Part shown: positions 46-38,781 of the stretch, piece after piece
Position numbering within the stretch: position 1 is the first letter of the stretch
Layout of the letters: each line of letters starts with the position of its first letter
NCBI GenBank assembly: GCA_030651895.1
Contig: JAUSBR010000011.1
Coordinates: 62,001 to 126,000, forward strand
Source of the DNA: Sideroxyarcus sp.
GTDB lineage: Bacteria; Pseudomonadota; Gammaproteobacteria; Burkholderiales; Gallionellaceae
Direction: 5' to 3'
DNA: 64,000 nt
Notes under the pieces: model-generated
Seen by the model: the letters and a program-made list of their open reading frames with translations, nothing else
The model's database searches: none
What the model was told of the DNA's origin: nothing
Translations under genes and position numbers: made by a program

Positions 46-855
46 TTATGCGTTGACTGCCAAAATAACGTGCGATGCCTTGATCAGCGCCGCTGCTTTC
101 ACACCTTCCTTCAATCCCAGCGACTTGATGCTGTCGTTGGTCACGATGGCTGCCACGCTCTTGCCGCCGGAAAGCTCGATGATGACTTCGCCGTTCACCG
201 CGCCTTCGTGGCAGCGCACCACCGTGCCGTGCAATTCGTTGCGCGCGCTGGTCTTGAAGCCGTCGGAGGTGGTCACGATCACCCACGGTGCCTTGATTAG
301 CGCATACGCTTGCGAGCCGATCTTCAAGCCCAGATGATTCACGCTCTCGTTGGTGATCACCGCCGCCAGCATGTCGCCGCCGCCGATCTCCAGCACCACC
401 TCGGCATTGATTGCGCCGAGCTTGATGCTCTTCACCGTGCCGAGGAACTGGTTGCGCGCACTCGTTTTCATATCGAATCTCCTTATCAAATGGTAGTACT
501 CGTCAAAATCGTCCATCACGTCCGCGAGCCGCTTCAACACCTCCTCGCGCTCCTGCTCCAGTCGGCGATAGGCACCGGCCACACGGCGTCCATAAACAGT
601 AAGCGTCGTGCCGCCGCCTTTGGCCCCGCCGGTCTTGCGCTCCACCAGCGGCTGTTCGGAAAGATTGTTGATCGCTTCGACCGCTTCCCACGCAGCCTTG
701 TAGCTCATGCCCATGGCACTCGCCGCCGCCGTGATCGAACCCGTCGCATCGATACGTTCCAGCAATTCCAGATGGTCCCAGCGCCGCCCCTTGGCGATCT
801 TCAGTTTGGAGACGACAGCAGAGCCAGTCTTCTTTTCAGCAGTTGCTTGCACCAT
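46..855 (-). CDS. modE: Molybdate-responsive transcriptional regulator ModE
   Basis: 269 residues, the usual ModE length. Residues about 15-110 form the LysR-like winged helix, with the family phrase AAWEAVEAINNL. Two tandem Mop domains follow, each beginning TSARN (about residues 131-198 and 202-269), which bind molybdate. The family represses molybdate uptake genes and activates some Mo-enzyme genes when molybdate is bound. The ATG at 855 has a GAGAGG ribosome site. It is divergent from a TonB receptor operon that carries two ModE-type operators, and a weaker operator-like sequence overlaps its own upstream region. Function is secure from domain architecture; the target genes are inference. 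Confidence 0.95.
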   Translation of the reverse strand: MVQATAEKKTGSAVVSKLKIAKGRRWDHLELLERIDATGSITAAASAMGMSYKAAWEAVEAINNLSEQPLVERKTGGAKGGGTTLTVYGRRVAGAYRRLEQEREEVLKRLADVMDDFDEYYHLIRRFDMKTSARNQFLGTVKSIKLGAINAEVVLEIGGGDMLAAVITNESVNHLGLKIGSQAYALIKAPWVIVTTSDGFKTSARNELHGTVVRCHEGAVNGEVIIELSGGKSVAAIVTNDSIKSLGLKEGVKAAALIKASHVILAVNA

Positions 856-891: not shown

Positions 892-1028
892 ATGAGCAAA
901 AGCGATGCCACCTCATGCATCGCACCCACACAACCCCCGCCACCATTTGATTCCTGCGAATACGTCCCGCTTGCGCGAAGCGCCAGCGTCACCCTGCTTT
1001 TGTAGTGTTTTGCACAAATTGCTGCGTT

Positions 1029-1052
1029 CGTTACAACCCTGACAACATAACG
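1029..1052. promoter_or_regulatory. ModE operator, distal copy
   Basis: CGTTAC, 12 bases, then ATAACG. As I recall it, the E. coli modA operator is CGTTAT-N12-ATAACG, so 11 of 12 half-site bases match at exactly the right spacing. It lies in the 323-base gap between modE and the TonB receptor, 100 bases upstream of a second copy. Confidence 0.75.
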
Positions 1053-1128
1053 GTCAAGACAATCGCGCCCAATCCAGCGCTGCTTCGCACTCCGCCCTGT
1101 TGGCACGCCCTTTGCTGAAATCGAATTG

Positions 1129-1152
1129 CGTTATGCACCAGACTATATAACC
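1129..1152. promoter_or_regulatory. ModE operator, proximal copy
   Basis: CGTTAT, 12 bases, then ATAACC, which is 11 of 12 bases of the E. coli ModE half-sites at the correct spacing. It ends 27 bases before the TonB receptor start codon, where a bound repressor would block transcription or an activator would sit very close to the promoter. Confidence 0.75.
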
Positions 1153-1178
1153 AAACACATTATACATAGGAGCGAAAA

Positions 1179-3152
1179 ATGAACAAAAACCGTACGATCA
1201 AACCGCAGTGGCTGGCTTGCATGCTGGCTTTGGCCTCTTCTGCGAACGCAGAGTCCTTCAACCTGGGTGAAATCACAGTGACCGCCCCCCGTTCCCAGAT
1301 CGGCGAGATCGGGGAAGACCAGACGGCTTCGGTCGTCACCAGCAAGGAGATGAAACGATTCAACCGCGACAACGTGGGCGACGCGCTGAACCTGCTTTCC
1401 GGCGTCACGCTCACCAACAGCGGCATGCGCAACGAGAAGATGATCTACGTGCGCGGCTTCGATGCGCGCCAGGTGCCGCTGTTCATCGACGGCATCCCGG
1501 TATATGTACCGTATGACGGCTATGTGGACCTGAACCGCTTCACCACCACCGATCTGGCCGCCATCCAGGTGAGCAAGGGATTCAGCTCGGTCGCCTACGG
1601 CCCCAATACGCTGGGCGGCGCGATCAATCTGATCTCGCGCAAACCGAAGACGAATCTGGAAGGCGATGTCTCAGTCGGATTCGCTTCCGGCAACGAGAAG
1701 CAGGCGCTGGCGAACATCGGCAGCAATCAGGGCATGTGGTATGCGCAGGCGGGCGTGTCTTACCTGAAGAGCGATGGTTATCCGCTCTCGTCCAGCTTCA
1801 CCCCTACCGCCACTGAAGACGGCGGCACGCGCAACAATGCCTACCGCAAGGACGACAAGGTCTCCCTCAAGCTGGGCCTGACACCGAATGCCAGCGACGA
1901 ATATGCCCTCAGCTACTACAAGCAGAACGGCGAGAAGGGCCAGCCGCCCACTACCGGTGCAGGCGCGCGCTACTGGAGATGGCCGATGTGGGACAAACAA
2001 AGTCTCTACTTCGTCTCGAAGACCGCGTTGAGTGATGCAGAAGAACTCAAGCTCAGACTCTATTGGGACAAGTTCGACAACGGCCTGGATATCTACACCA
2101 ACGATACCTACACGACCATCGCCAATCCGGTCGCCGACCGCAGCACCTATGACGACACCACGCGCGGCGGCTCGGTCGAGCTGGCCAGCAAGCGTCTCGA
2201 CGCACACGAGATCAAATTCGTCGCCCACTACAAGATGGACAAACACATCGCGCGCGACGGTGTCTCGACCATCACCGAGTCGTTCCAAGACACGTTGAAC
2301 GCCTACGCGGTGGAAGACAACATCGTGCTTGACCCCGCACTGCTGCTCTCTCTCGGCCTCAGCAAACAGACGCTACGACCGCAGGAAGTCTACAAACCCG
2401 GCAGTCCGTTCACCCTGCCCGATGCGAAAAGCGACACTACCGGACAGGCCGCTCTGTTCTACGATGCGACTGCCAGTTCGCGCATCTATGTCAGCCTCGC
2501 GCAAAAGTCGCGCCTGCCGACCCTGAAAGACCGTTACTCGGCCAGGTTCAACACATACAACGAGAACACCGCGCTGCGGCCCGAATCGTCGCTCAATTAC
2601 GAGATCGGCTATCAGGACACACCATCGCCAGAAGCCAAGGTCGAGGCAGCGCTCTTCTACAGCGACATCACCGACAAGATCCAGACGGCTTACCAGCAGG
2701 GCATGTCCACCTGCACCGTCGGAGCCAAATGCCAGATGCAGAACATTGGCAAGGTCCGTTCCAGCGGGATCGAACTTGGCATGCACGGTGCGGCAAACTC
2801 TTCGCTGGAACTTGGCGGCAACTACACCCTCACCGCACTCAAGAACGTCAGCGATCCCACAACCAAGCTGACCGGCATCCCTCGCCACAAGGCGACCGCA
2901 CATGCCTTGTACAAAGTGGGGGATGCGTTGGACCTCATCACCTTCGCCGAATATGACAGCAGCCGCTGGGCGTCGAACACGGTCGAGTTGTCCGGTTTCA
3001 CGACGCTGAATCTGAAAGCGATCTACCGCGTCACGGCGGGCATTTCGGTCGAAGCAGGCGTCAACAACCTGACCGACCGCAGCTACTCGCTGGCTGACGG
3101 CTACCCGAATCCGGGCCGCAACTGGTTCGCCAACGCTTCGATGAAATTCTAG
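1179..3152 (+). CDS. TonB-dependent outer-membrane receptor, ModE-linked
   Basis: 657 residues. A signal peptide ends near residue 24 (SSANA). A TonB-box-like EITVTAPR follows, then a plug domain (about residues 45-155, with RGFDARQVPLFIDGIPV) and a 22-strand barrel ending in the outer-membrane signature ...MKF with a terminal Phe. The start has an AGGAG ribosome site 7 bases upstream. It heads an operon with a binding protein and a di-haem oxidoreductase and lies behind two ModE-type operators. A role in taking up molybdate, a molybdenum chelate or another ModE-controlled substrate is therefore likely. Related receptors carry iron siderophores or cobalamin, so the substrate is inferred from context only. 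Confidence 0.9.
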   Translation: MNKNRTIKPQWLACMLALASSANAESFNLGEITVTAPRSQIGEIGEDQTASVVTSKEMKRFNRDNVGDALNLLSGVTLTNSGMRNEKMIYVRGFDARQVPLFIDGIPVYVPYDGYVDLNRFTTTDLAAIQVSKGFSSVAYGPNTLGGAINLISRKPKTNLEGDVSVGFASGNEKQALANIGSNQGMWYAQAGVSYLKSDGYPLSSSFTPTATEDGGTRNNAYRKDDKVSLKLGLTPNASDEYALSYYKQNGEKGQPPTTGAGARYWRWPMWDKQSLYFVSKTALSDAEELKLRLYWDKFDNGLDIYTNDTYTTIANPVADRSTYDDTTRGGSVELASKRLDAHEIKFVAHYKMDKHIARDGVSTITESFQDTLNAYAVEDNIVLDPALLLSLGLSKQTLRPQEVYKPGSPFTLPDAKSDTTGQAALFYDATASSRIYVSLAQKSRLPTLKDRYSARFNTYNENTALRPESSLNYEIGYQDTPSPEAKVEAALFYSDITDKIQTAYQQGMSTCTVGAKCQMQNIGKVRSSGIELGMHGAANSSLELGGNYTLTALKNVSDPTTKLTGIPRHKATAHALYKVGDALDLITFAEYDSSRWASNTVELSGFTTLNLKAIYRVTAGISVEAGVNNLTDRSYSLADGYPNPGRNWFANASMKF

Positions 3153-3162
3153 GAGACCCGCC

Positions 3163-4440
3163 ATGAAGACAGCAAATTGGATGCTTGCGCTCTGCCTGCT
3201 GCTCTTGCCGCCACTGGCCGCCGCCACTGAGAAGGTGGTGGTGATCACCAGTTATCCGCAAGAGGTCATCTCGCAGTTCGAGGCCGCTTTCGAGAAGAAA
3301 TATCCGCAGTACCGGCTGGAGATTCTGTGGAGGCAATCGCGCGATACGATGAACTACCTGCACCAGCCGCACAGCCCGGTCGATGTGTACTGGACACCCG
3401 CGCAGCGCAACTTCGCGCAACTGGCGAAGGAAGGCGCCCTGCGCAAACTCGACATCGACCTGACTGGCTTGCCGAAGCGCATAGGCGGCTTCCAAATTTC
3501 CGATCCCGACGGTTATTACGTCGCGCATGAGACCGCCGGTTACGGCATGGCCTACCACCCTGCCGAACTGCAACGACTCGGACTGCCGGTGCCGATCGAC
3601 TGGAAATCCCTGACCGCACCCGCATACAGCGGGCACGTCGTGGTTCCGATCCCGTCCAAGGTCGGCTATGCGCCCATGTTGGTGGATACATTGTTGCAGG
3701 GCTACGGCTGGGAACAGGGCTGGGACATTCTGGCGCGGGTGGCTGCCAATGCCAGTCTCGCCGATGCGGGTGCGACGTTCATCTCCGACGATGTCGGTAG
3801 CGGACGTGTCGCCGTCGGGATGACAATGGACTTTTTCGCCGTTTCCGCCATTGCCAACGGCAAACCATTGCGCTTCACCTATCCGGTCAGGGTTGGCTAC
3901 TCGCCCGCGCACATCGGCATCTTCAAGGAAGCCGCCAACCTCAACGGTGCGCGCACCTTCGCCAGTTTCGTGCTTTCCGATGAAGGCCAGAAACTGCTGT
4001 TCCACCCCGACATCCGCAAACTGCCGGTGCGCCCCGCCGTCTATGCCCGCAAACCGGAAGGCTACTTCGATCCATTCGCCGCAGCGCGCCTTGCCTCCTA
4101 CGACTACGACGTGGCGACCGGACTGAGCCGACAAGAACTGGTCAGCGCACTGTTCGATGCCTTGATCACTCGCCAGCATGCAGTACTGAAAACCATGTGG
4201 TCGGCGATCCACCAGGCGGAACAACGCGCACCCAACGATCCGCGCTTGCAGCAGGCGCGCAACCACGCCAACTGGCTGCCGCTGACCGCGGCACAGGCGA
4301 ACGATGCCGCACGCCAGCAATTATTCATTCAGCGCGACAGCCGCACCGAATCGCTTGAGCAACAGTGGAATGCCGACATCGCGAACCACTACGCGCAAGC
4401 CACCCGCATCGCGCTGGCTATCGCAGGAGAAAAACCATGA
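3163..4440 (+). CDS. Periplasmic extracellular solute-binding protein with C-terminal helical extension
   Basis: 425 residues with a signal peptide (cleavage near AAA, residue 20). The body from VVVITSYPQEVISQFEAAFE to about residue 320 has the pattern of iron(III)/polyamine-type (cluster D, AfuA-like) binding proteins. About 100 further residues, charged and helical, follow PEGYFDPF and are not part of a typical binding protein. It starts 10 bases after the TonB receptor with an AGGAG site and overlaps the next gene by ATGA. No permease or ATPase gene is present, so the binding protein may use a distant transporter or act as a periplasmic carrier or sensor. Confidence 0.85.
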   Translation: MKTANWMLALCLLLLPPLAAATEKVVVITSYPQEVISQFEAAFEKKYPQYRLEILWRQSRDTMNYLHQPHSPVDVYWTPAQRNFAQLAKEGALRKLDIDLTGLPKRIGGFQISDPDGYYVAHETAGYGMAYHPAELQRLGLPVPIDWKSLTAPAYSGHVVVPIPSKVGYAPMLVDTLLQGYGWEQGWDILARVAANASLADAGATFISDDVGSGRVAVGMTMDFFAVSAIANGKPLRFTYPVRVGYSPAHIGIFKEAANLNGARTFASFVLSDEGQKLLFHPDIRKLPVRPAVYARKPEGYFDPFAAARLASYDYDVATGLSRQELVSALFDALITRQHAVLKTMWSAIHQAEQRAPNDPRLQQARNHANWLPLTAAQANDAARQQLFIQRDSRTESLEQQWNADIANHYAQATRIALAIAGEKP

Positions 4441-5783
4441 ACCGACTAACCTGCTTGTTGCTGTGCATCCTAGCGGCGGCACGCCCTGCATTCGCCAACG
4501 ATGCTGCCATCGCCGTCAGCGACGACACGCGTGAAGCCTACACTCAGGCCATCCCCGCGCTGGCCGAGACAGACCGCGCGAAATTCCTCAAGGGGCGCGC
4601 GCTAGTGCGCCAGGTGTGGGTGATCCCGCCCAGCGAGAACCGCGAGATTGCCGGACTCGGACCGCTCTACAACCGCCTGTCCTGCATCGCCTGCCATCCG
4701 GCGAACGGGCATGGCTTCGCACCGGAAAGCGCAGCCGAACCGATGCGGGCGATGCTGGTGCGCCTGAGCGTGCCGGGCAAAGATCCGCATGGCGGACCGC
4801 TGCCGCACGCGGCCTATGGCGGACAGCTGAATGAGAATGGCGTGCCTGGCGTGACGGGTGAAGGTCGCACCGAAGTGCATTACCGCACACACACGGTCAG
4901 CCTGAGCGGCGGCGAGATGGTGAAACTTCGCCAGCCGGAATTCCGCTTCGTCGACCTAGCCTATGGCGACTTCCCCGCCAGCATGATGACCTCGTCGCGC
5001 ATCGGTTCACCGATCTTCGGCCTCGGCTTGCTGGAGGCCGTGCCCGAAGGCACGCTCGTGGCGCTGGCGGCAGTCGGCAAACCGGCGGGCATCAAGGGCA
5101 AGGTCAATTACGTGTGGGATGCCGAGCTGAAGAAGAGCGTGCCGGGCCGCTTCGGCTGGAAGGCCAACATGCCCAACCTGCGCCAGCAGATCGCCGGGGC
5201 GATGGTCGGCGACCTCGGCATCACCTCGCCGCTGTTCCCGCAGGAGAACTGCATGCTCGTGCAGAGCGACTGCGCGAAATCACCTTCCGACGGCAAGCCG
5301 GAATTGAGCGCCGCGCAACTCGACGCGACAGAGTTCTATCACTTCGCCCTCGCCGCTCCACAGCCGCGCAACAACGGCGACAAGCAAGTTAAGCGCGGCG
5401 CAGTCCTGTTCGGGAAGGCGCAGTGCGCGGCCTGCCATGTGCCAGAACTGAAGACCGGCGAGTTCGCAAAATACCCGGCGCTTTCCAACCGCACCATCCA
5501 TCCCTATACCGACCTGCTGCTGCACGACATGGGCGAAGCACTCGCCGATCACAGACCGGACTATCTGGCGAATGGCCGCGAATGGCGCACGCCGCCGCTG
5601 TGGGGGATTGGTCTCGCGCAGAAGATCGAAGCGCGTGCCGGTTTTCTGCACGACGGACGCGCCAGATCTTTGCTGGAAGCGGTGTTGTGGCATGGCGGGG
5701 AAGGTGCCGGTTCAACGCAAGCAGTCAAGGATATGACAGCAGCCGACCGAAATGCGCTGATCGATTTCCTGGAATCGCTGTAG
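4437..5783 (+). CDS. Di-haem oxidoreductase (DHOR / DUF1111 type) c-type cytochrome
   Basis: 448 residues with a signal peptide ending near ARPAFA. It has two c-type haem motifs, CIACH (residues 83-87) and CAACH (about 329-333). The C-terminal part reads LLHDMGEALAD and FLHDGRARSL, as in the DUF1111/DHOR family of putative peroxidases related to MauG. It overlaps the binding-protein stop by four bases (ATGA), so translation is coupled. DHOR proteins are periplasmic redox enzymes. Beside a TonB receptor and binding protein this one could change the redox state of the imported metal or chelate, which is inference. Confidence 0.88.
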   Translation: MNRLTCLLLCILAAARPAFANDAAIAVSDDTREAYTQAIPALAETDRAKFLKGRALVRQVWVIPPSENREIAGLGPLYNRLSCIACHPANGHGFAPESAAEPMRAMLVRLSVPGKDPHGGPLPHAAYGGQLNENGVPGVTGEGRTEVHYRTHTVSLSGGEMVKLRQPEFRFVDLAYGDFPASMMTSSRIGSPIFGLGLLEAVPEGTLVALAAVGKPAGIKGKVNYVWDAELKKSVPGRFGWKANMPNLRQQIAGAMVGDLGITSPLFPQENCMLVQSDCAKSPSDGKPELSAAQLDATEFYHFALAAPQPRNNGDKQVKRGAVLFGKAQCAACHVPELKTGEFAKYPALSNRTIHPYTDLLLHDMGEALADHRPDYLANGREWRTPPLWGIGLAQKIEARAGFLHDGRARSLLEAVLWHGGEGAGSTQAVKDMTAADRNALIDFLESL

Positions 5784-5804: not shown

Positions 5805-7949
5805 CTACGCCAGCAACTGCTCAAACTCCCGCGCGGGTAGCGGTTTGGAAAACAGGAAGCCCTGAGCGTAGTCGCAGTGCATAGCGTGTAGCAGGTCGCG
5901 TTGCCGCATGGTTTCCACGCCCTCGGCGATGACTTTCAGACCTAGTTTGTGCGCCATGACGATGATCGCCTCGCACACGATCTGGTCGTCATGGTCTTCG
6001 GTCATGTCGCGCACAAAGGATCGGTCGATCTTGAGATAGTCGATGTCGTATTTTTTCAGGTAGGACAACGACGAGTAGCCCGTGCCAAAATCATCGAGCG
6101 CTACCTGCACGCCAGAATCACGAATGGCGAGCAACTTATCGGCCACATCCCCGTCCAGCAGCAATCCTTCGGTGATCTCTATCGCGACACTGCTCCCGGG
6201 CAGATCAAGTTTCTGCAAGTGAGCCATCCACTCGCTGAAGCTGTGCCGCTCCGAATGGAATTGCACCGGCGATTTATTGACGCCGATCTGGAACAAGGGA
6301 TGACCGTTCATGCGCAGATGCTTCACCAGTTGAGCGGCCTGCCGGAACACCCAATCGCCGATCTCGACGATCTGACCGGTCTCCTCGGCGATATGGATGA
6401 ATTCGTCCGGCGGCACCAGGCCGCGCACCGGATGCTGCCAGCGGATGAGCGCTTCCGCCTTGTGAACATGGCCCGACTTCAATTCGATGATAGGTTGATA
6501 ATGGATCACAAACTGTTTCTCCGCCAGCGCACTGCGCAGATCCCGTGCGATCTTCATGTGATGCTCGGCAGCCTCCTGCAGTTCAGGAGTGAAATAGTGA
6601 AAGCGGTTGCGACCAGCAGCCTTGGCCGCATACATGGCCTGATCGGCGTACTTGAGCAGATCGTTTATCTTCACAGTATCGTTGGGAAAAAGCGTGATGC
6701 CGATGCTGACGCTGATGAAAGCCAGCTCCTCCCCCAGTTGGAACGGTTCGGCCAGCACAGCGCAGATATTCTGCGCGATCCGTTCGACGACTGACAGGTC
6801 CGCCAGGCCGGTGAGAAGGATCGTAAATTCGTCACCGCTCAACCGGGCCACCGTATCGGTTTCGCGCACACACTCGCACAGACGCCGCGCGGTCTCCTTC
6901 AACAACAGGTCACCCATATAGTGCCCCAGCGTGTCGTTGACCTCCTTGAAAAGATCGAGATCGAGAAACAGCAATGCCAACGGCAAGCCGGAACGGTTGG
7001 ATTCTTTCATCGCCTGCTCCAGGCGGTCGGCAAACAATCGGCGGTTGGGCAGGCCGGTCAGGTCATCGTAGTTGGCCTGTCGCTCGATCTGCTGCTGGGC
7101 ACGCTGTCTTTCGGTGACATCGTGAAATACCAGCACCGCTCCACTAATCTTTCCTTGCGTATCCTTCACGGGCGCAACGGAATCCTCGACCGGAACCTTG
7201 CGTCCGTCACGCGAGACCAACACCGTATTGATCTTCAACTCCCCGGTCTTGCCATCGCTCAACACCGCGCTGACCGGGTCCGGTGATGTCGTTCCGGTCT
7301 GCCCGTCATATATCGTGAACACCTCGCTCAAAGGCTTGCCTGCCGCCTCGGCTTGCGTCCAGCCCAGAATCGTCTGCGCTACCGAGTTGAGATGTTCGAC
7401 CCGTCCGTCGACATCGGTCACGATCACAGCATCACCGATAGACTCGAAGACGATGCGCGCACGCTCGTTGTCGCGGCGCGCCCTTTCTGAGAACGCATGC
7501 TGCATGCAGGCCAGGCTGGCATCGGCCAGACGCGCCAATATCGGCTTGAGTATCTGCAACAGGTGGCGCGGCAACGGCGAGGTGCGCTGCAACATCACAA
7601 AGCCGTTCTGACCGAGCGGCAGCAGATGGTAGAACAGGCCGCCTTCTTCGATCGCCGCCTCGGTTGCCCGCAGCATCGCATCGCGTTGATGCATTTCGAT
7701 GGCACGACCGACAGACGGGACATGCTGCAGGTCCGCAAAGGCCAGGCGCGGATAACTGAAGCAGATGGCCGCGCCGTTGTCCGACAACGCATCCTCCTGC
7801 CATAACATCCCTGCACGACAACCGAGCAGCTTGAGCGCGGGCGGCAGGAACTGCCGCCACATCCCGGCTAGGTCGAGTTCGCGCCCCACCAGCATGGATA
7901 GTGCATATTGCGTGGCGATCAGGTCGAACTTATCGAGCGACTTATTCAC
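5805..7949 (-). CDS. PAS-GGDEF-EAL cyclic-di-GMP protein
   Basis: 714 residues. An N-terminal GAF-like region covers about residues 1-160. A PAS domain with its C-terminal motif follows (about 165-285, SIGDAVIVTDVDGRVEHLN). The GGDEF domain has LSGDEF in place of GGDEF, and the EAL domain keeps AEALIRW, EITEG and DDFGTGYSS. The preserved EAL residues suggest phosphodiesterase activity; SGDEF variants can remain cyclases. The start is GTG in GTGAATAA, overlapping the stop of the FIST gene by eight bases, so it is translationally coupled to that sensor. No membrane segment is seen. Confidence 0.93.
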   Translation of the reverse strand: MNKSLDKFDLIATQYALSMLVGRELDLAGMWRQFLPPALKLLGCRAGMLWQEDALSDNGAAICFSYPRLAFADLQHVPSVGRAIEMHQRDAMLRATEAAIEEGGLFYHLLPLGQNGFVMLQRTSPLPRHLLQILKPILARLADASLACMQHAFSERARRDNERARIVFESIGDAVIVTDVDGRVEHLNSVAQTILGWTQAEAAGKPLSEVFTIYDGQTGTTSPDPVSAVLSDGKTGELKINTVLVSRDGRKVPVEDSVAPVKDTQGKISGAVLVFHDVTERQRAQQQIERQANYDDLTGLPNRRLFADRLEQAMKESNRSGLPLALLFLDLDLFKEVNDTLGHYMGDLLLKETARRLCECVRETDTVARLSGDEFTILLTGLADLSVVERIAQNICAVLAEPFQLGEELAFISVSIGITLFPNDTVKINDLLKYADQAMYAAKAAGRNRFHYFTPELQEAAEHHMKIARDLRSALAEKQFVIHYQPIIELKSGHVHKAEALIRWQHPVRGLVPPDEFIHIAEETGQIVEIGDWVFRQAAQLVKHLRMNGHPLFQIGVNKSPVQFHSERHSFSEWMAHLQKLDLPGSSVAIEITEGLLLDGDVADKLLAIRDSGVQVALDDFGTGYSSLSYLKKYDIDYLKIDRSFVRDMTEDHDDQIVCEAIIVMAHKLGLKVIAEGVETMRQRDLLHAMHCDYAQGFLFSKPLPAREFEQLLA

Positions 7950-9057
7950 CGGAGAATGCTCCCATCACGATGGTTTTGTTGTAGTACTCGAGACAGCCCT
8001 CGTCGCGCCCCGCGATCTCACCGACAGTCAGCGCCCCGAACACGGGCACACCGTCCGGTAACGCTTGGGTCATGGCAGCGACTTCTTCCGGGTATCTGCC
8101 ACCGAGAAACAACGAACGTCCGACACAGTCGAATGCCAGCACGAACCCGCCGTCGACATGCAATCGTCCGGCCACCTGACCCACAGTACTGATGAGTTCG
8201 TCGGCATCGCCCGAAAGGATATAGAGCAACGCGCCTTCGGGGAATTCACCGACACAGAGCAGGCTATCCGCCCGTCTGACGACCGTCTCGCGCACGACGA
8301 TGTCGCCGTCCCATTTCTTGAGACCGAAAGGATGGTGGCTGGCGATCTCGAAATACGGGCGGTCATCAAAGCGCTGTTCGCCGATCTTCTCAACCTGTTC
8401 GCGGTAGACTTCAAAAGCGGGCCGGTAATCCAGTTCGTGAATGGTTGCTCCCTCGCTTCGGGTCACCAGGAAAGGGCCCGACAGCACCTGCCAGCCGTGC
8501 CCCACCTCGACCCCGCTATGCATTGGCAAACCAGCCAGCTGCGCGGCATCCGCCAACACACCGGCATTACTGAACAAACAGGGTTTCTGGATAAATTCAA
8601 GCGAACCGGCGCCACCGCCCAGATAGCGCCGGTTCATACCCAGCGCATCGTAGATTGCATCCAGCACGGGGGTGATCCGCCTTGCGACTCCGTCGAGTAG
8701 CACAATGACTGTCGGCATTTCCTGCAACACGGTGTCGAACTCGGCTATCTGCGACGCGAGATCTGTTTCCGGATCGCTGATGCGTTCGATGTGCCGCACC
8801 TCGACTTCAGCATCAAGCCCGCACACTAAAGTGCCTCGATCAAAATTCTTTTGCGCATGGATAATCTGGGGAAATATCCCGCCAAAAACCGGAACCGGCA
8901 ATTGGCTCAGCTTGCGATCGACAACGTCGATGGGAAAATGATTGGCATCACAGGACAGCAAGAACAGGCTGCGCGCGCCTGCGGCAACGGCGGCATCCAT
9001 ATTGCGGAAGAACGCATCCAAGTTCCCCGCAGGTTCGAACCAGATTTTCTTATTCAC
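7942..9057 (-). CDS. FIST domain sensory protein
   Basis: About 371 residues with FIST_N (residues about 20-200, RSLFLLSCDANHFP and VPVFGGIFPQ) and FIST_C (VFGALTVGEIAG near the end). FIST proteins are thought to bind small ligands, perhaps amino acids, and to pass the signal to a partner. I place the start at GTG 9055-9057 because an AAAGG site sits seven bases upstream; an in-frame TTG at 9096 would add 13 residues. The partner is very likely the PAS-GGDEF-EAL protein encoded immediately downstream with an 8-base overlap. Confidence 0.87.
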   Translation of the reverse strand: MNKKIWFEPAGNLDAFFRNMDAAVAAGARSLFLLSCDANHFPIDVVDRKLSQLPVPVFGGIFPQIIHAQKNFDRGTLVCGLDAEVEVRHIERISDPETDLASQIAEFDTVLQEMPTVIVLLDGVARRITPVLDAIYDALGMNRRYLGGGAGSLEFIQKPCLFSNAGVLADAAQLAGLPMHSGVEVGHGWQVLSGPFLVTRSEGATIHELDYRPAFEVYREQVEKIGEQRFDDRPYFEIASHHPFGLKKWDGDIVVRETVVRRADSLLCVGEFPEGALLYILSGDADELISTVGQVAGRLHVDGGFVLAFDCVGRSLFLGGRYPEEVAAMTQALPDGVPVFGALTVGEIAGRDEGCLEYYNKTIVMGAFSGE

Positions 9058-9239: not shown

Positions 9240-10004
9240 TCACGGAAATTCGTAGCCGAAGCCGCGCATCACCTTCTGCGCTCTCTCGCTCTTCAGGAAA
9301 ACGAGGAAAGCTTTGGCCGCTGCCGGATCTTTTGCACCGGCCAACAACACCGCGCTCTGGCGGATGGGGGTGTGCATCTCGGGCGGCACCAGCCACCAGG
9401 AACCGGAGCTCACCTTGCCGTCGCGCATCACCTGCGACAGCGGGATGAAAGCCAGCTCGGTCCTTTCGCTGGCGGCGAACCGATATGTCTCGATCACATC
9501 GTCGCCCTTGTCCAGTTTGCGTTGCATCGCGTTCCACATCGTCAGCTTGGTCAGCGTCTCTTTCGCCGCCACGCCGTAGGGCGAGTTGACCGGATTGGGA
9601 ATCGCCAGCAGGTTGAAGTTGCCACGATTAAGTACCAGTCCCTTGTCATCCACGAAACCGTCTTGCGCGCTCCACAGCACCAACCGTCCCGTGGTATAGA
9701 TGAAACGCGAACCGGTGACCGCCGTACCTTCCTGCATCATGCGCTTGGGCAGTTCTTCATCCGCCGAGAGGAACACATCGAACGCCGCGCCTTTTTTGAT
9801 CTGCGCATACAACTTGCCACTGGCCCCCGGTGTGACCTTCACCGCGTGTCCGCTTTCCTTCTGGAACAAGGGCACAAGGCGCTCCATGGGGGCGACAAAG
9901 TTGGACGCCACTGCGACGCTCACTTCGCCGGCCTGCACCGGCGAAGCCATCAGTCCGCACAACATCAATATGGCGGCGAACTCGTTACGCAATGGGATTT
10001 GCAT
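9240..10004 (-). CDS. modA: Molybdate ABC transporter substrate-binding protein ModA
   Basis: 254 residues. A signal peptide ends near SPVQA, and the mature chain begins with the ModA pattern VSVAVASNFVAPMERLVPLF. It continues with GASGKLYAQIKKGAAFDVFLSAD, a family hallmark that lines the oxyanion site. The ATG at 10004 has AGGAG six bases upstream. It binds molybdate or tungstate in the periplasm for an ABC permease, but modB and modC are not adjacent. I found no ModE box in the region upstream, in contrast to the TonB operon. Confidence 0.88.
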   Translation of the reverse strand: MQIPLRNEFAAILMLCGLMASPVQAGEVSVAVASNFVAPMERLVPLFQKESGHAVKVTPGASGKLYAQIKKGAAFDVFLSADEELPKRMMQEGTAVTGSRFIYTTGRLVLWSAQDGFVDDKGLVLNRGNFNLLAIPNPVNSPYGVAAKETLTKLTMWNAMQRKLDKGDDVIETYRFAASERTELAFIPLSQVMRDGKVSSGSWWLVPPEMHTPIRQSAVLLAGAKDPAAAKAFLVFLKSERAQKVMRGFGYEFP

Positions 10005-10132
10005 CTTCTGCTCCTGACTTGAATGGCTACCATGATAGCTCGCCAAGCGGCAAGTAGCGAAAGGTATAGGTCGTTTGGCATATTGACCGAGGGGTTTTGG
10101 GCGGGTACGGTTCACCCCACGACCATTCTGCA

Positions 10133-10401: not shown

Positions 10402-10423
10402 GGACAGCGAAGCCGTTTTGCCG

Positions 10424-11485
10424 ATGAAGCGACCTTTCCTCATCCTTGTGCTTGTGCTGCTCGGCTGCAGCAAACCCGTTGTCACCGGCGACTGGAAGAA
10501 CGCGCCGGTCGATCCCATCAAGCCGGGAGCCATCGTGAAGCTCCGTGTCGCCTACGCGAACAATCCGCGTCTGGCGCGCTTCTCGCCGGACCATCTGCGC
10601 ATCGTGCTGGCTTCCGCCCAACTGACCATGTGGAAGAACTTCGGCACCTTCGTCGAGTTCACCGACATCACTGAGACCGGGGTCGAGCAGATGTTCGCGC
10701 TCATCCCGTCGCCGATACGGGCGGCGCGCGTCGAATCGATCTATGACTTCAAGTCCGGAACCGGTGACAGACGCATGCTGGCCGAGGGGATCAACAACAC
10801 GCTGACCGAACGCAAGACGAAACTGGAAGATGCGCTGACCTTTGCGGCGCCCTATCTGCCGGGTTCGCCGCCAAAGGACCTGATGGCGCTTTCCGAATCG
10901 CTGACGAAAGTGATGCTGGAAAGGCTGGAACAGTGGCGCCATGTCATGGCGGCCGACGGGGCGCCGGTACTCGATGCCTCGCCGTACAACGAATGGGTCT
11001 ACTGGGACACGCTGGGTTACGGCAACCTGCAATACGATCTGGTGCTGACCAACCAGTTCATCGCCAGCGCCGAGTACTACGGCGTCGACATCCATTCCGC
11101 GATCCGCGGCGGGGTGACGGTAGGCACCACTTCCTACAGCCGCAACAGCCCGTATGCTTCATATGTGTTTATGAGCACGTTCCCGTTCACGGACAATTCC
11201 GAGAACACGCGGCAGTTGCGTGACGGCGACTATTCTGAAGAATTGGCTGCAGAACTCGCTGGAGCCTATCTGGCACACGAGATCGGTCACCTCCTGTTCC
11301 AGCTCGGACACCCGTTCGGCCAAAAAGCATGCGCGATGAATCCGGTCAGCATGCTGCGTTTCCGCGAGTGGTACACCCAGATCAACGGCAAGGAATGTCC
11401 GATCGGCAGCCGCCCGGAAATGAGAGCCGGCGCGATTCCACCCTCGTTCAACGGGGACTGGCTGAAGTTGACGCCTGCACCATAG
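10424..11485 (+). CDS. Lipoprotein with zincin HEXXH motif, putative metalloprotease
   Basis: 353 residues from ATG 10424. It begins with a lipoprotein signal peptide with lipobox LLGC (Cys 14). Near the C terminus HEIGH (residues 285-289) is followed by LLFQLGH, giving HEXXH with a third His seven residues later, close to but not exactly the metzincin spacing. MNPVSMLRF follows, resembling a met-turn. It is probably a membrane-anchored zinc protease acting in the periplasm; I know no close family. An alternative start at 10418 adds two residues. Confidence 0.8.
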   Translation: MKRPFLILVLVLLGCSKPVVTGDWKNAPVDPIKPGAIVKLRVAYANNPRLARFSPDHLRIVLASAQLTMWKNFGTFVEFTDITETGVEQMFALIPSPIRAARVESIYDFKSGTGDRRMLAEGINNTLTERKTKLEDALTFAAPYLPGSPPKDLMALSESLTKVMLERLEQWRHVMAADGAPVLDASPYNEWVYWDTLGYGNLQYDLVLTNQFIASAEYYGVDIHSAIRGGVTVGTTSYSRNSPYASYVFMSTFPFTDNSENTRQLRDGDYSEELAAELAGAYLAHEIGHLLFQLGHPFGQKACAMNPVSMLRFREWYTQINGKECPIGSRPEMRAGAIPPSFNGDWLKLTPAP

Positions 11486-15874: not shown

Positions 15875-17350
15875 TTACGCTGCCTTCTTTTCCGTTTCGG
15901 AATCAGCCTTCTTCAGCCACGGTGCCTGCATCTTGCCCCAGCACGGGTTGTTCAAAGTCATGTCCATGTCGCGGGCAAAGATGGCGAAGCCGTCGTAGCC
16001 GTGGTACGGGCCGGAATAGTCCCAGCTGTGCATCTGGCGGAAAGGAACACCCATCTTTTGGAAGATGAACTTTTCCTTGATGCCGGAACCGACCAGGTCT
16101 GGCTTGACGCGTTTGACGAACTCCTCGAACTCGAAGCCGGTGACATCGTCGTACAGCAGTGTCGCGTTGCCCATATCCTTGATGGTGCGGTCGTAGTCGT
16201 CGCCGTGGGCGAACTCGTAACCGGTACCGACCACTTCCATGCCCAGGTCTTCATAGGCACCGATCACGTGACGCGGACGCAGACCACCCACGTACAGCAT
16301 GACGCGCTTGCCTTGCAGACGCGGCTTGTACTTGTCGATCACGGCTTGCATCAGCGGCTGGTACTTGGCGATGACGCGCTCGGCACCTTCCTTGATCTTG
16401 TCGTCGAACTTCGCGGCGATGGCACGCAGCGACTCGGCAACCTTGGTCGGGCCGAAGAAGTTGTATTCCATCCAGGGGATGTTGTACTTCTCTTCCATGT
16501 GGCGCGCGATGTAGTTCATCGAACGGTAGCAGTGGATCAGGTTGACCTTGACATAAGGTGTCTTCTCCATCTCGGCGATGGTGCCGTCACCGGACCATTG
16601 CGCGACAACGCGCAGACCCATCTCTTCCAGCAGGATGCGGGAAGACCAGGCGTCGCCGCCGATGTTGTAGTCGCCGATCACGGCCACGTCGTACGGTGTG
16701 GACTCGAACGCCTTGCCATCACGGCGCGGCAGAACCCAGTCACGGATCGCATCGTTGGCGATGTGGTGACCCAGCGATTGCGACACGCCGCGGAAACCCT
16801 CGCAGCGCACCGGCACGACCGGCTTGTCGATCTCTTTGGCGGCTTTCTTGGAAACGGCCTCGATATCGTCACCGATCAGACCGATCGGGCACTCGGATTG
16901 CACGGAGATACCTTTGTTCAGCGGGAACAGCTGCTCGATCTCGCCGATCAGTTTGGCGAGCTTCTTGTCGCCGCCGAACACGATGTCCTTTTCCTGGAAA
17001 TCGGAAGTGAAGTTCATCGTGCCGAAGGTGTTCACGCCGGTGGTGCCGACGTAGTAGTTACGGCGACCGGCGCGGGAATACTGACCGCAACCGACCGGGC
17101 CGTGGGAAATGTGGATCATGTCCTTGATCGGGCCCCACACCACGCCTTTGGAACCGGCGTATGCGCAACCGCGAATGGTCATCACGCCCGGCAACGATTT
17201 GCGGTTGGAGGTGATGCACTTCTTGGACTGTTCGATCGAGTGATCATTGACGGCGAGGTGTTTCTCGCGGTCTTTCTTTGCTTTCTCTGGATAAACCTCA
17301 AGCACCTCCTGAATCAGGGCCTGGGTTTCTTCGCGTGTTAATGCTGTCAT
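15875..17350 (-). CDS. nifD: Nitrogenase molybdenum-iron protein alpha chain
   Basis: 491 residues. P-cluster ligands are in [19 protein letters not shown] and [11 protein letters not shown]. The FeMo-cofactor Cys is in [11 protein letters not shown], and the cofactor His is in [15 protein letters not shown]. All key residues are present and the alpha-subunit is of the Mo type. It has an AGGAG site before ATG 17350 and follows nifH by 106 bases. Confidence 0.99.
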
Positions 17351-37253: not shown

Positions 37254-38781
37254 TCCCCGTATCGAACTCGATCTGCTGCGCTCCGAACTGGAGACGCTGT
37301 ATCAGGTCAGCAAGGTGCTATCGCGCTCGCTCAATCTCAAAGAGACGCTGGACGGCGTGCTGCACGCATTGCATGAAGGCGTGGCGCTGGAACGCGGCAT
37401 GGTCAGCTTGATCGACGCGGCCAGCGGCGAGCTGCAGGTGTCGCTGGTGTACGGCGTATCGGATGCGGTCACCGAAGAGGTCAGCTATCTGCCCGGCGAA
37501 GGCGTGGTCGGCACCATCCTCAAGACCGGCAGCAGCATTGCGGTCGAATGCATCATGGACGAGCCGCGCTTTCTGAGCCGCATGGGCATCTACAACCCGC
37601 AGGGCGCCTTCGTCGGCGTACCGATCCGCGTCGGCCAAAAGGTCATCGGCGTGCTGGCCGCGCAGCCCGCGCCCAGCATCAACAAGCAACTGGACGAGTA
37701 CCGGCATTTCCTGGAGATGGTCGCCAACCTGATCGGCCAGAGCGTGCGCCTGTCGCAGGATGTGGCCGAGGAGAAGAAGGAGATCTCCGAAGAGCGCGAT
37801 GTGCTGCGCCGCACCGTGCGCGGGCAATACGGTTTCGACAACATCATCGGCCACACCCAGTCGATGCGCCGCATCTTCGAGCAGGTGCGGCTGGTGGCGA
37901 AGTGGAACACCACCGTGCTCATCCGCGGCGAGACCGGTACCGGCAAGGAACTCATCGCCAACGCCATCCACTACAACTCGCCGCGCGCGCGCGGCAGTTT
38001 CGTCAAACTCAACTGCGCGGCCCTGCCGGAGACCTTGCTGGAAAGCGAACTGTTCGGCCACGAGAAAGGTGCGTTCACCGGCGCGGTGGCGCAACGCAAG
38101 GGACGCTTCGAACAGGCCGAGGGCGGCACCGTATTCCTCGACGAGATCGGCGAGATCTCCGCTTCGTTCCAGGCCAAGTTATTGCGCGTGTTGCAGGAAG
38201 GCGAACTGGAACGCGTCGGCGGCACAAAAACCATCAAGGTCGATGTGCGCGTGGTCGCGGCCACGCACCGCGATCTGGAACAGGAGGTTGAAAAAGGACG
38301 CTTCCGCGAGGACTTGTATTACCGCCTCAACGTGATGCCGCTGTACCTGCCGCCGCTGCGCGACCGCATGGAAGACATCCCCGAGATCGCGCGCTTCCTG
38401 GTGGAAAAGGTCAGCACCAACCAGGGCCGCCAACTCAGCCTCACCGATGCCGCACTGCGCATCCTCATGCACCACGACTGGCCGGGCAACGTGCGCGAAT
38501 TGGAGAACTGTCTGGAACGCGCCTCGGTGATGACCGAGGGCAACACCATAGACCGCGATGCCATCCTGCTCACCGGCATCGACGAGAAGATCTCCACCAG
38601 CCGCGGCGCGATACAGGAATTGGACCTCGACGATCCCAACCTCGACGAGCGCGAGAAGGTCATCGCCGCACTGGAACAGGCCGGCTGGGTACAGGCCAAG
38701 GCGGCAAGGTTGCTCGACATGACGCCAAGGCAGATCGCGTACCGCATTCAGACGCTGAACATCAAGGTGAGGCAGATCTAG
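37246..38781 (+). CDS. nifA: NifA, sigma-54-dependent activator of nif genes
   Basis: 511 residues from ATG 37246 with a GGGAGG site. An N-terminal GAF domain covers about 20-165. The AAA+ domain has GETGTGKE (Walker A) and GAFTGA, which contacts sigma-54. The C-terminal Fis-type helix-turn-helix reads [19 protein letters not shown]. The Cys motif of oxygen-sensitive rhizobial NifA is absent, consistent with control by NifL. It acts at the TGT-N10-ACA sites listed in this window. Confidence 0.97.

Follow-up and report, generated by a model that had tools for sequence, protein, structure and literature searches.

We analysed a 64-kb stretch of the genome of Sideroxyarcus sp. (Gallionellaceae), called the window below, in which an operon for a TonB-dependent outer-membrane receptor, a periplasmic binding protein and a di-haem oxidoreductase (DHOR) is divergent from modE. 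These three genes, the trio, are probably an outer-membrane molybdenum (Mo) uptake module used under Mo starvation, most likely for a Mo chelate. ModE control of the trio is well supported by sequence, and its NifA/sigma-54 control is supported in most diazotrophs. A previous, sequence-only reading had proposed a Mo-scavenging route here; its ModE regulation is borne out by the comparison of operons, and the uptake of Mo is what we infer.

ModE boxes between modE and the receptor gene

The same reading had placed two ModE operators in front of the operon, and the scan of the sequence confirms both. Box B (1029-1052, CGTTAC-N12-ATAACG) and box C (1129-1152, CGTTAT-N12-ATAACC) start exactly 100 bases apart, and each is one base off the scanned pattern CGNTAT-N12-ATANCG and scores 9 of 10 core positions. 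The ModE operator consensus quoted in excerpts of PMC545781 is ATCGNTATATA-N6-TATATANCGAT. None of 200 dinucleotide shuffles of the 430-base region at the start of the receptor gene equals the better box. The window thus has an operator before the operon, as a member of a ModE regulon should.

Beyond what had been read before, the same intergenic region holds a third, weaker box, two sigma-54 promoters and a NifA-type site. Box A (868-891, CGTTAT-N12-CCAACG), with two mismatches the weakest of the three, lies at the modE start directly downstream of the sigma-54 promoter facing modE. Box C is directly downstream of the trio's sigma-54 promoter and would sit about at the expected transcript start of the receptor operon. 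No strand is assigned to the boxes. From left to right the elements are box A, the sigma-54 promoter toward modE, the NifA-type site, box B, the sigma-54 promoter toward the receptor and box C. This layout is almost mirror-symmetric, with a ModE box directly after each promoter and the NifA-type site and box B in the middle.

A lone ModE box proves nothing, because the genome-wide counts are at chance level: the available genome, 73% complete, has 28 sites with at most one mismatch and 38 for a reversed control pattern. In the window, sites with at most two mismatches number 22 against 13.8 expected, and 22 is reached in 4 of 100 shuffles. What lifts the pair of boxes above chance is its conservation across loci and the comparison with paralogues. 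The sole perfect CGNTAT-N12-ATANCG site in the available genome sequence is outside the window (G000:C11:146444-146467).

An alignment of seven Gallionellaceae intergenic regions shows conservation concentrated in the three ModE boxes, both sigma-54 promoters and the NifA-type site, with the sequence around these islands diverged. The half-site bases CGTTAT and AACG of box A are unchanged in all seven, and box A is above the score threshold in merely three of the eight trio loci. Box C is found at the trio promoter in all eight Gallionellaceae trio loci, and a box at its place also in three of seven modE regions of relatives without the trio (L119, L120 and L132). Box B is kept in six of these seven trio-less regions, so it is probably shared with modE.

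The trio and its paralogues

Homologues of the binding protein fall into group A, with at least 40% identity, and group B, with 29-36%. They were found at 17 loci in named genomes, in 32 of 399 genomes of an order sample (E 1e-40), 10 of 369 of a class sample (1e-50), 10 of 110 of a family sample (1e-85) and 3 of 398 of a phylum sample (1e-80). Several named strains, of Methylobacillus, Herminiimonas and Oxalicibacterium, carry the trio itself; Methylobacillus glycogenes JCM 2850 and Herminiimonas contaminans have it together with a ModE box.

The DHOR gene adjoins the binding-protein gene throughout group A (25 loci together with the window, L127, L130 and L136), and a TonB receptor is present in all group A loci except L053, L054 and L055. 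In group B, a fused permease and an ATPase follow in 22 of 22 order-sample loci. Such a paralogue-type permease is found in none of the 25 trio-type loci, and the trio operon has no permease and ATPase of its own, as an ABC importer would. The linkage of the binding protein with DHOR, mostly with the receptor and without the paralogue-type permease, is supported by this survey.

One exception to the split is a second binding-protein copy in L004, which is 36% identical and followed by a DHOR gene. This extra pair (L004:1335-4198; 36% and 52% identical to the two proteins of the window) lies just upstream of a full trio and has no ModE box. The L017 locus of Methylobacillus gramineus (6950-8010) is broken, with the binding protein and DHOR each just partly present.

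The check suggested by the sequence-only reading, a scan of homologous operons for ModE boxes, was run on 26 trio-type loci. The 430 bases at the first-gene start were scored against 200 dinucleotide shuffles, and a pass meant at least 8 of 10 core positions with at most 10 of the 200 shuffles as good. A box passes in 22 of the 26 group A operons (8/8 in Gallionellaceae and 14/18 in others) but in 1 of 25 in group B, with a Fisher p of 2.2e-9; the p values serve just as a guide, because the loci are often related to one another and the pass mark was chosen once earlier scans with mononucleotide shuffles had been run. The boxes precede the trio even where modE is not adjacent, as in Methylobacillus, Herminiimonas and Oxalicibacterium.

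Left out of the test were L002 and L130, where the contig ends within the receptor gene or shortly before it, the same-contig copies L049, L050, L125, L126, L128, L129 and L131, the short search loci, L107, which lacks DHOR, and L136, for which a slightly different threshold applied. The 25 paralogues do not include L109, in which no permease was found.

Sigma-54 and NifA input

Sigma-54 promoters are marked by a -24/-12 motif, and NifA-type upstream activator sites by TGT-N10-ACA. The promoter toward modE (895-910, minus strand, TGGCATCGCTTTTGCT) and that toward the receptor operon (1101-1116, plus strand, TGGCACGCCCTTTGCT) both match 11 of 11 consensus positions. The NifA-type site (1001-1016, no strand assigned) lies between these divergent promoters, and the receptor-side promoter begins 100 bp past it. 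The -12 element of the receptor-side promoter is at 1112-1115. None of 300 shuffles gives a receptor-side site equally good. In the 64-kb window there are three perfect sigma-54 matches, two of which are these promoters, and 15 matches with one mismatch allowed against 5.65 expected.

All 15 modE regions of Gallionellaceae that were examined have a modE-side site, again with 11/11 positions, whether the trio is there or not. The NifA-type motif by itself is at chance in the window (11 against 9.8 expected), so the site draws its weight from its place and its conservation. It is found in 8/8 Gallionellaceae trio loci.

Across the operons, a sigma-54/NifA pair was defined as a sigma-54 site of at least 10/11 facing the first gene and preceded by a NifA-type site at a distance of 79-125 bp. 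Of 14 group A loci in genomes with nifD, 12 have the pair, versus none of 12 in genomes without a nifD match (p 9.5e-6). The former set includes L009, where nifD is a mere fragment at the end of a contig (9.6e-9), and L104, with nifD split over two contigs, each part under the cut-off; the latter includes two incomplete genomes (G393, 64%; G126, 78%). None of the 25 group B paralogue operons has the pair.

The ModE box passes in all 12 loci of genomes without a nifD match. Three of the loci that miss it, L016, L051 and L056, are diazotroph operons with the sigma-54/NifA element; L016 and L051 have a 10/11 sigma-54 site, and L056 a perfect one with a borderline box. It appears that where a nitrogenase is present the operon is mostly wired to NifA/sigma-54, and where no nifD was found just the ModE box is seen.

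The window encodes nifD (15917-17317, minus strand, over the cut-off) in a downstream nif cluster and nifA (37282-38778, plus strand; 610 bits, or 686 with its neighbour in frame, at a cut-off of 528.85). The promoter, the activator site and NifA itself, as expected of a NifA/sigma-54 regulon, are therefore together in one window. The location beside a nitrogenase, which the earlier reading had mentioned, holds here but not as a general rule, because 12 of the 18 trio genomes tested outside the family, that is 12 of the 26 compared operons, have no nifD match. A strict nitrogenase dependence of the trio is rejected on the same count. In the family sample, nifD is over the cut-off in 8 of 10 trio-bearing versus 30 of 100 other genomes.

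The gene products

Pfam and NCBIfam profile matches confirm the receptor/binding protein/DHOR operon divergent from modE. The modE gene (46-855, minus strand) encodes a molybdate-responsive repressor with a helix-turn-helix and two Mop/TOBE domains. Both Mop domains are over the cut-off, and the full-length ModE model matches at 1.8e-54, under its equivalog cut-off. The genes modA, modB and modC follow modE outside the window, as read in locus L048.

The receptor (1179-3152, plus strand, 657 amino acids) matches the Plug (1.3e-21) and barrel (6.1e-35) profiles of Pfam, and a signal peptide and a TonB-box-like EITVTA were identified by eye, which together make it a TonB-dependent transporter. 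It is under the cut-off of all 25 NCBIfam models examined of the 31 matched, the best being TIGR01783 with 154.7 against 223.5. By these 25 models, it belongs to none of the known siderophore, haem, B12 or copper receptor subfamilies.

Nine related loci, eight of Gallionellaceae and L004 of a metagenome-assembled genome labelled Methylophilaceae, carry three receptor types that are 32-48% identical between types and 67-79% within. The binding protein/DHOR base is 66-84% identical across the same nine loci despite the different receptor types. Such swapping is the pattern that would be expected from exchange for different ligands or from phage escape.

The binding protein (3163-4440, plus strand, 425 amino acids) is of the SBP_bac_6 type with a C-terminal helical extension, and its locus holds no partner permease of its own. 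In a search with its AlphaFold model (pLDDT, the predicted local distance difference test, 86.4), the best fold matches are the binders of glucose-6-phosphate and related sugar phosphates VcA0625 and AfuA, followed by ferric-binding proteins and one metal-citrate binder. A Tyr pair serves Fe(III) in the ferric-ion-binding protein FbpA. The residues aligned with Tyr-Tyr of the ferric-binding protein are here Phe224-Phe225, after Asp223; the pair is the same in the window protein and in 25 trio-type homologues, so that the protein lacks this mark of FbpA. Tyr31, Arg57, Glu123 and Pro171 are conserved specifically in group A as compared with group B.

The DHOR gene (4437-5783, plus strand; Pfam PF06537, DUF1111, 9.5e-89) overlaps with its start the stop of the binding-protein gene (ATGA). 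The product has the family profile and two CxxCH haem sites, C83-C86-H87 and C330-C333-H334, which are invariant in 17 sequences. A PDB sequence search at E 0.01 gave no solved relative.

Two further genes of the window were observed. A second ModA-like gene (9240-10034, minus strand; TIGR01256, 1.4e-54) has a homologue near modE in five of seven trio-less relatives and in L127. A lipoprotein-like open reading frame (10418-11485, plus strand), with a metalloprotease-like motif HEIGHLLFQLGH seen by eye, has matches in 8 of 14 Gallionellaceae loci, and one homologue is without an NCBIfam match.

Genomic links to molybdenum, tungsten and iron

In Gallionellaceae, the trio is divergent to modE-modABC. 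ModE-domain matches of E 4e-24 or better are found in all 18 trio genomes tested outside the family, and the Sideroxyarcus genome itself encodes ModE, as the regulon would need. In the P0004 search of the order sample, ModE is present in 8 of 10 trio-bearing versus 140 of 389 other genomes, and in the family sample in 9 of 10 versus 43 of 100.

The sequence-only reading would lose its ground if trio homologues elsewhere lacked ModE boxes and were consistently next to iron or cobalamin genes. This was examined in part and is not the picture obtained: next to the box count given above, in 13 of 25 group A loci the fetched stretch shows a ModE- or ModA-like match nearby, a neighbour count made with no systematic search for iron or cobalamin genes. 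Downstream of the Herminiimonas trio come genes for a ModA-like protein, a TonB receptor of the siderophore type and a ModE-like protein with a single domain. In L055, ModE- and Mop-like genes flank the binding protein-DHOR pair; the neighbouring ATPase was tried as ModC and rejected, as the profile search gave the FecE/BtuD type.

Tungsten comes in with L107 (3855-9927), from another order of the class, where tupABC directly precede a trio-related receptor/binding-protein pair without DHOR. TupA (6.5e-65) and TupB (1.6e-60) are both under the equivalog cut-offs, and the ATPase matches WtpC best. The L107 pair is a possible tungsten version of the trio.

Fur control was also tried and is rejected, as 21 upstream regions scanned gave no general Fur-box signal. 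In that scan, L104 alone beats all shuffles (13/19 bases, 0/200), with L007 next (16/200).

Other genes were seen beside ModE boxes. A porin gene (L132:6664-7437 and L008:9950-11080) has ModE boxes at -52 and at -244 or -261, and its best NCBIfam match is PorB, under the cut-off. In L132, which is without the trio, the porin occupies the trio's place, divergent from modE and with a 10/11 sigma-54 site. A porin under ModE control may be a further way in which the outer membrane responds to a lack of Mo. A gene that is DUF2325-like by eye and without an NCBIfam match lies beside perfect-core ModE boxes (L057:12317-13648, with two boxes, and L053:2928-3995) and may be a further ModE target.

Proposed mechanism

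From the known biology of ModE, the repressor with bound molybdate would switch the operon off, and low Mo would switch it on. In diazotrophs, where NifA would act as well, the operon would be on just during N2 fixation with low Mo. The TonB receptor would actively import a Mo(VI) species into the periplasm, most likely a chelate of variable make. The Mo complex would be captured by the orphan binding protein, which has binders of phosphate esters and of metal chelates among its fold neighbours, and DHOR would free the metal, for example via oxidation of the organic ligand. The released molybdate could then enter the cell via ModABC, encoded by the divergent operon in Gallionellaceae, so that no dedicated inner-membrane permease would be needed.

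Two observations favour a chelate over bare molybdate: receptor types are exchanged on a binding protein/DHOR base that is kept, and in L132 the place of the trio is taken by a porin with ModE boxes. Catechol siderophores are known to carry Mo. A fuller picture is an energy-driven "molybdophore" pathway with swappable receptors for Mo chelates, the binding protein, a DHOR that destroys the chelator and a double lock of ModE and NifA/sigma-54. We put it forward tentatively, at somewhat below an even chance.

Evidence against the uptake module and rival explanations

Several observations weigh against a Mo uptake module under ModE control. The box test is missed in 4 of 26 loci (L004, L016, L051 and L056), and L004 has neither the ModE box nor the sigma-54/NifA element, though nifD is in its genome. 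L055 passes weakly, with 8 of 200 shuffles as good, and is without a sigma-54 site, and one group B paralogue locus, L105, has a passing box. Neither the tup-linked pair of L107, whose genome has a weak ModE-domain match (2.4e-8), nor the 10 kb of L136 (4742-9444), a locus of another class with the permuted order binding protein-DHOR-receptor, shows a ModE box. The ModE-boxed porin has homologues in L003, L005 and L009 without the box.

The tie to ModE itself is uneven, as no ModE- or ModA-like match is in the fetched stretch of 12 of the 25 trio-type loci, and just 6 of the 19 searched genomes exceed the curated cut-off of the ModE-domain profile, which at E 0.001 finds a match in 7 of 14 control genomes too. 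L119 (7250-7800), with a ModE 99% identical and without the trio, retains boxes A, B and C and the NifA-type site, so box C alone is no proof of a live target. Its forward sigma-54 promoter is not kept at the trio position, a 10/11 match instead overlapping box B, and the arrangement looks like the remnant of a recent operon loss. As to the proteins, the pairs of L053, L054 and L055 have no adjoining receptor. The DHOR model is poor (pLDDT 57.4) and unfit for structure search, which leaves the DHOR chemistry a guess.

Iron stays in play as well. A second, siderophore-type TonB receptor is near the trio in five loci of four Methylobacillus species and Herminiimonas, downstream of DHOR in L010, L013, L017 and L018 and at 10803-12992 in L012; it is over the TIGR01783 cut-off in L012 and L018, the two scanned. 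The FecE/BtuD-type ATPase of L055 points the same way, and for DHOR proteins found elsewhere a link to iron uptake is described in excerpts of PMC3143127. Moreover, a NifA-regulated uptake would fit iron too.

Among the rival explanations, the receptor could take bare molybdate or tungstate, with the binding protein as a second molybdate binder and DHOR unrelated, for example in redox protection. The nearest solved relatives of the binding protein do bind anionic phosphate esters, a related pair does follow the tungstate transporter genes tupABC, and in Pseudomonas aeruginosa a ModA secreted by the type VI secretion system works with the outer-membrane IcmP in molybdate uptake, according to excerpts of PMC8602904. 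This account is nevertheless unlikely, since a constant anion leaves the receptor swapping unexplained and the trimeric porin with ModE boxes at the same place in L132 would suffice for an anion. TonB receptors, besides, normally serve large or scarce complexes. An iron or iron-siderophore system under nif and Mo control, feeding Fe to the FeMo cofactor, would account for the siderophore-type receptors and the L055 ATPase, for a receptor closest to siderophore, haem and B12 receptors and for a modelled binding-protein fold resembling ferric-binding proteins. DHOR/DUF1111 is also a genomic partner of imelysins implicated in iron uptake, and for A. ferrooxidans a cluster for joint Fe-Mo transport has been proposed (excerpts of PMC3143127 and PMC2631029, respectively). 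However, Mo-keyed iron uptake makes little sense in the 12 of 12 loci that pass the box test without a nifD match, a general Fur-box signal is lacking in the 21 upstream regions and the Tyr pair is not kept, and we regard the iron system as quite improbable.

Two other explanations carry less weight still. The operon might supply a substitute when Mo is short, be it vanadium or additional iron for an alternative nitrogenase, much as A. vinelandii turns on three TonB receptors via VnfA1 without Mo (excerpts of PMC9542535); but the 12 of 18 extra-family trio genomes without a nifD match still keep the operon and the box, and such a role is very improbable. That the boxes are chance or modE's own, with the trio outside ModE control, would agree with the chance-level genome-wide counts and with the box B and box C sites that trio-less relatives keep. 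It is hardly credible given the boxes before trios with no adjacent modE, box C at every Gallionellaceae trio promoter and the excess in group A over group B. The boxes as chance events were rejected on this cross-locus conservation and group comparison. We thus retain the Mo uptake module, most likely for a chelate, as the probable function of the trio.

Relation to known systems

The regulatory logic has a precedent in Rhodobacter capsulatus, where, in excerpts of PMC6925177, morAB is NifA-activated and repressed at a Mo-box. Like the trio, morABC is activated by NifA and Mo-repressed through ModE-like regulators and encodes a putative periplasmic molybdate-binding protein. Unlike the trio, it is described there as a possible extra molybdate uptake system with no TonB receptor, the term TonB being absent from the text, and its deletion is cited as without effect on Mo-nitrogenase activity. 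In Azotobacter vinelandii, the TonB receptors Avin_30860, Avin_39890 and Avin_47130 are similarly turned on without Mo through the sigma-54 activator VnfA1. They differ in being called siderophore receptors and lying in operons with putative ABC components, and neither a ModE box nor DHOR is mentioned for them in excerpts of PMC9542535.

The PhnS2/AfuA-type ABC systems of group B include the nearest binding-protein homologues, 29-36% identical over the same length including the C-terminal part. Unlike the trio, they have the fused permease and ATPase (22/22 in the order sample), neither receptor nor DHOR, and the box in 1/25. ModABC and TupABC take up molybdate or tungstate, and ModABC is ModE-controlled as well (excerpts of PMC9542535), but they serve the inner-membrane step only and are neighbours of the trio, not homologues.

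For DHOR, excerpts of PMC3143127 describe imelysin-DUF1111 clusters in which it is the partner of imelysins, one family being called ICMP. To judge from the name, this family and the P. aeruginosa IcmP that works with secreted ModA in molybdate uptake (excerpts of PMC8602904) would be one. The resulting tie of DHOR to molybdate uptake, by analogy, is distant but suggestive. Unlike for the trio, ModE or NifA control is not described for these systems in the excerpts of either paper.

Implications

Among the matches listed in open-licence literature on Mo, molybdate or tungstate with TonB or the outer membrane, as titles and abstract beginnings, no ModE-controlled TonB receptor was found, nor is one described in the excerpts of papers examined, and IcmP of P. 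aeruginosa is the sole outer-membrane partner named in the literature examined (excerpts of PMC8602904). The trio would be TonB-dependent metal uptake in a new form, with a regulatory circuit close to that of morAB. Most fresh waters contain little Mo, and it has been found to limit production in them, as stated in the abstract of PMC3440940.

The trio gives candidate genes for an outer-membrane Mo receptor, a binding protein and a release enzyme, and its compact promoter seems to read the Mo and nitrogen status together. The operon could be deleted in the Methylobacillus, Herminiimonas and Oxalicibacterium strains that carry it. A dedicated outer-membrane Mo route is thereby suggested for a nitrogen fixer and several of its distant relatives.

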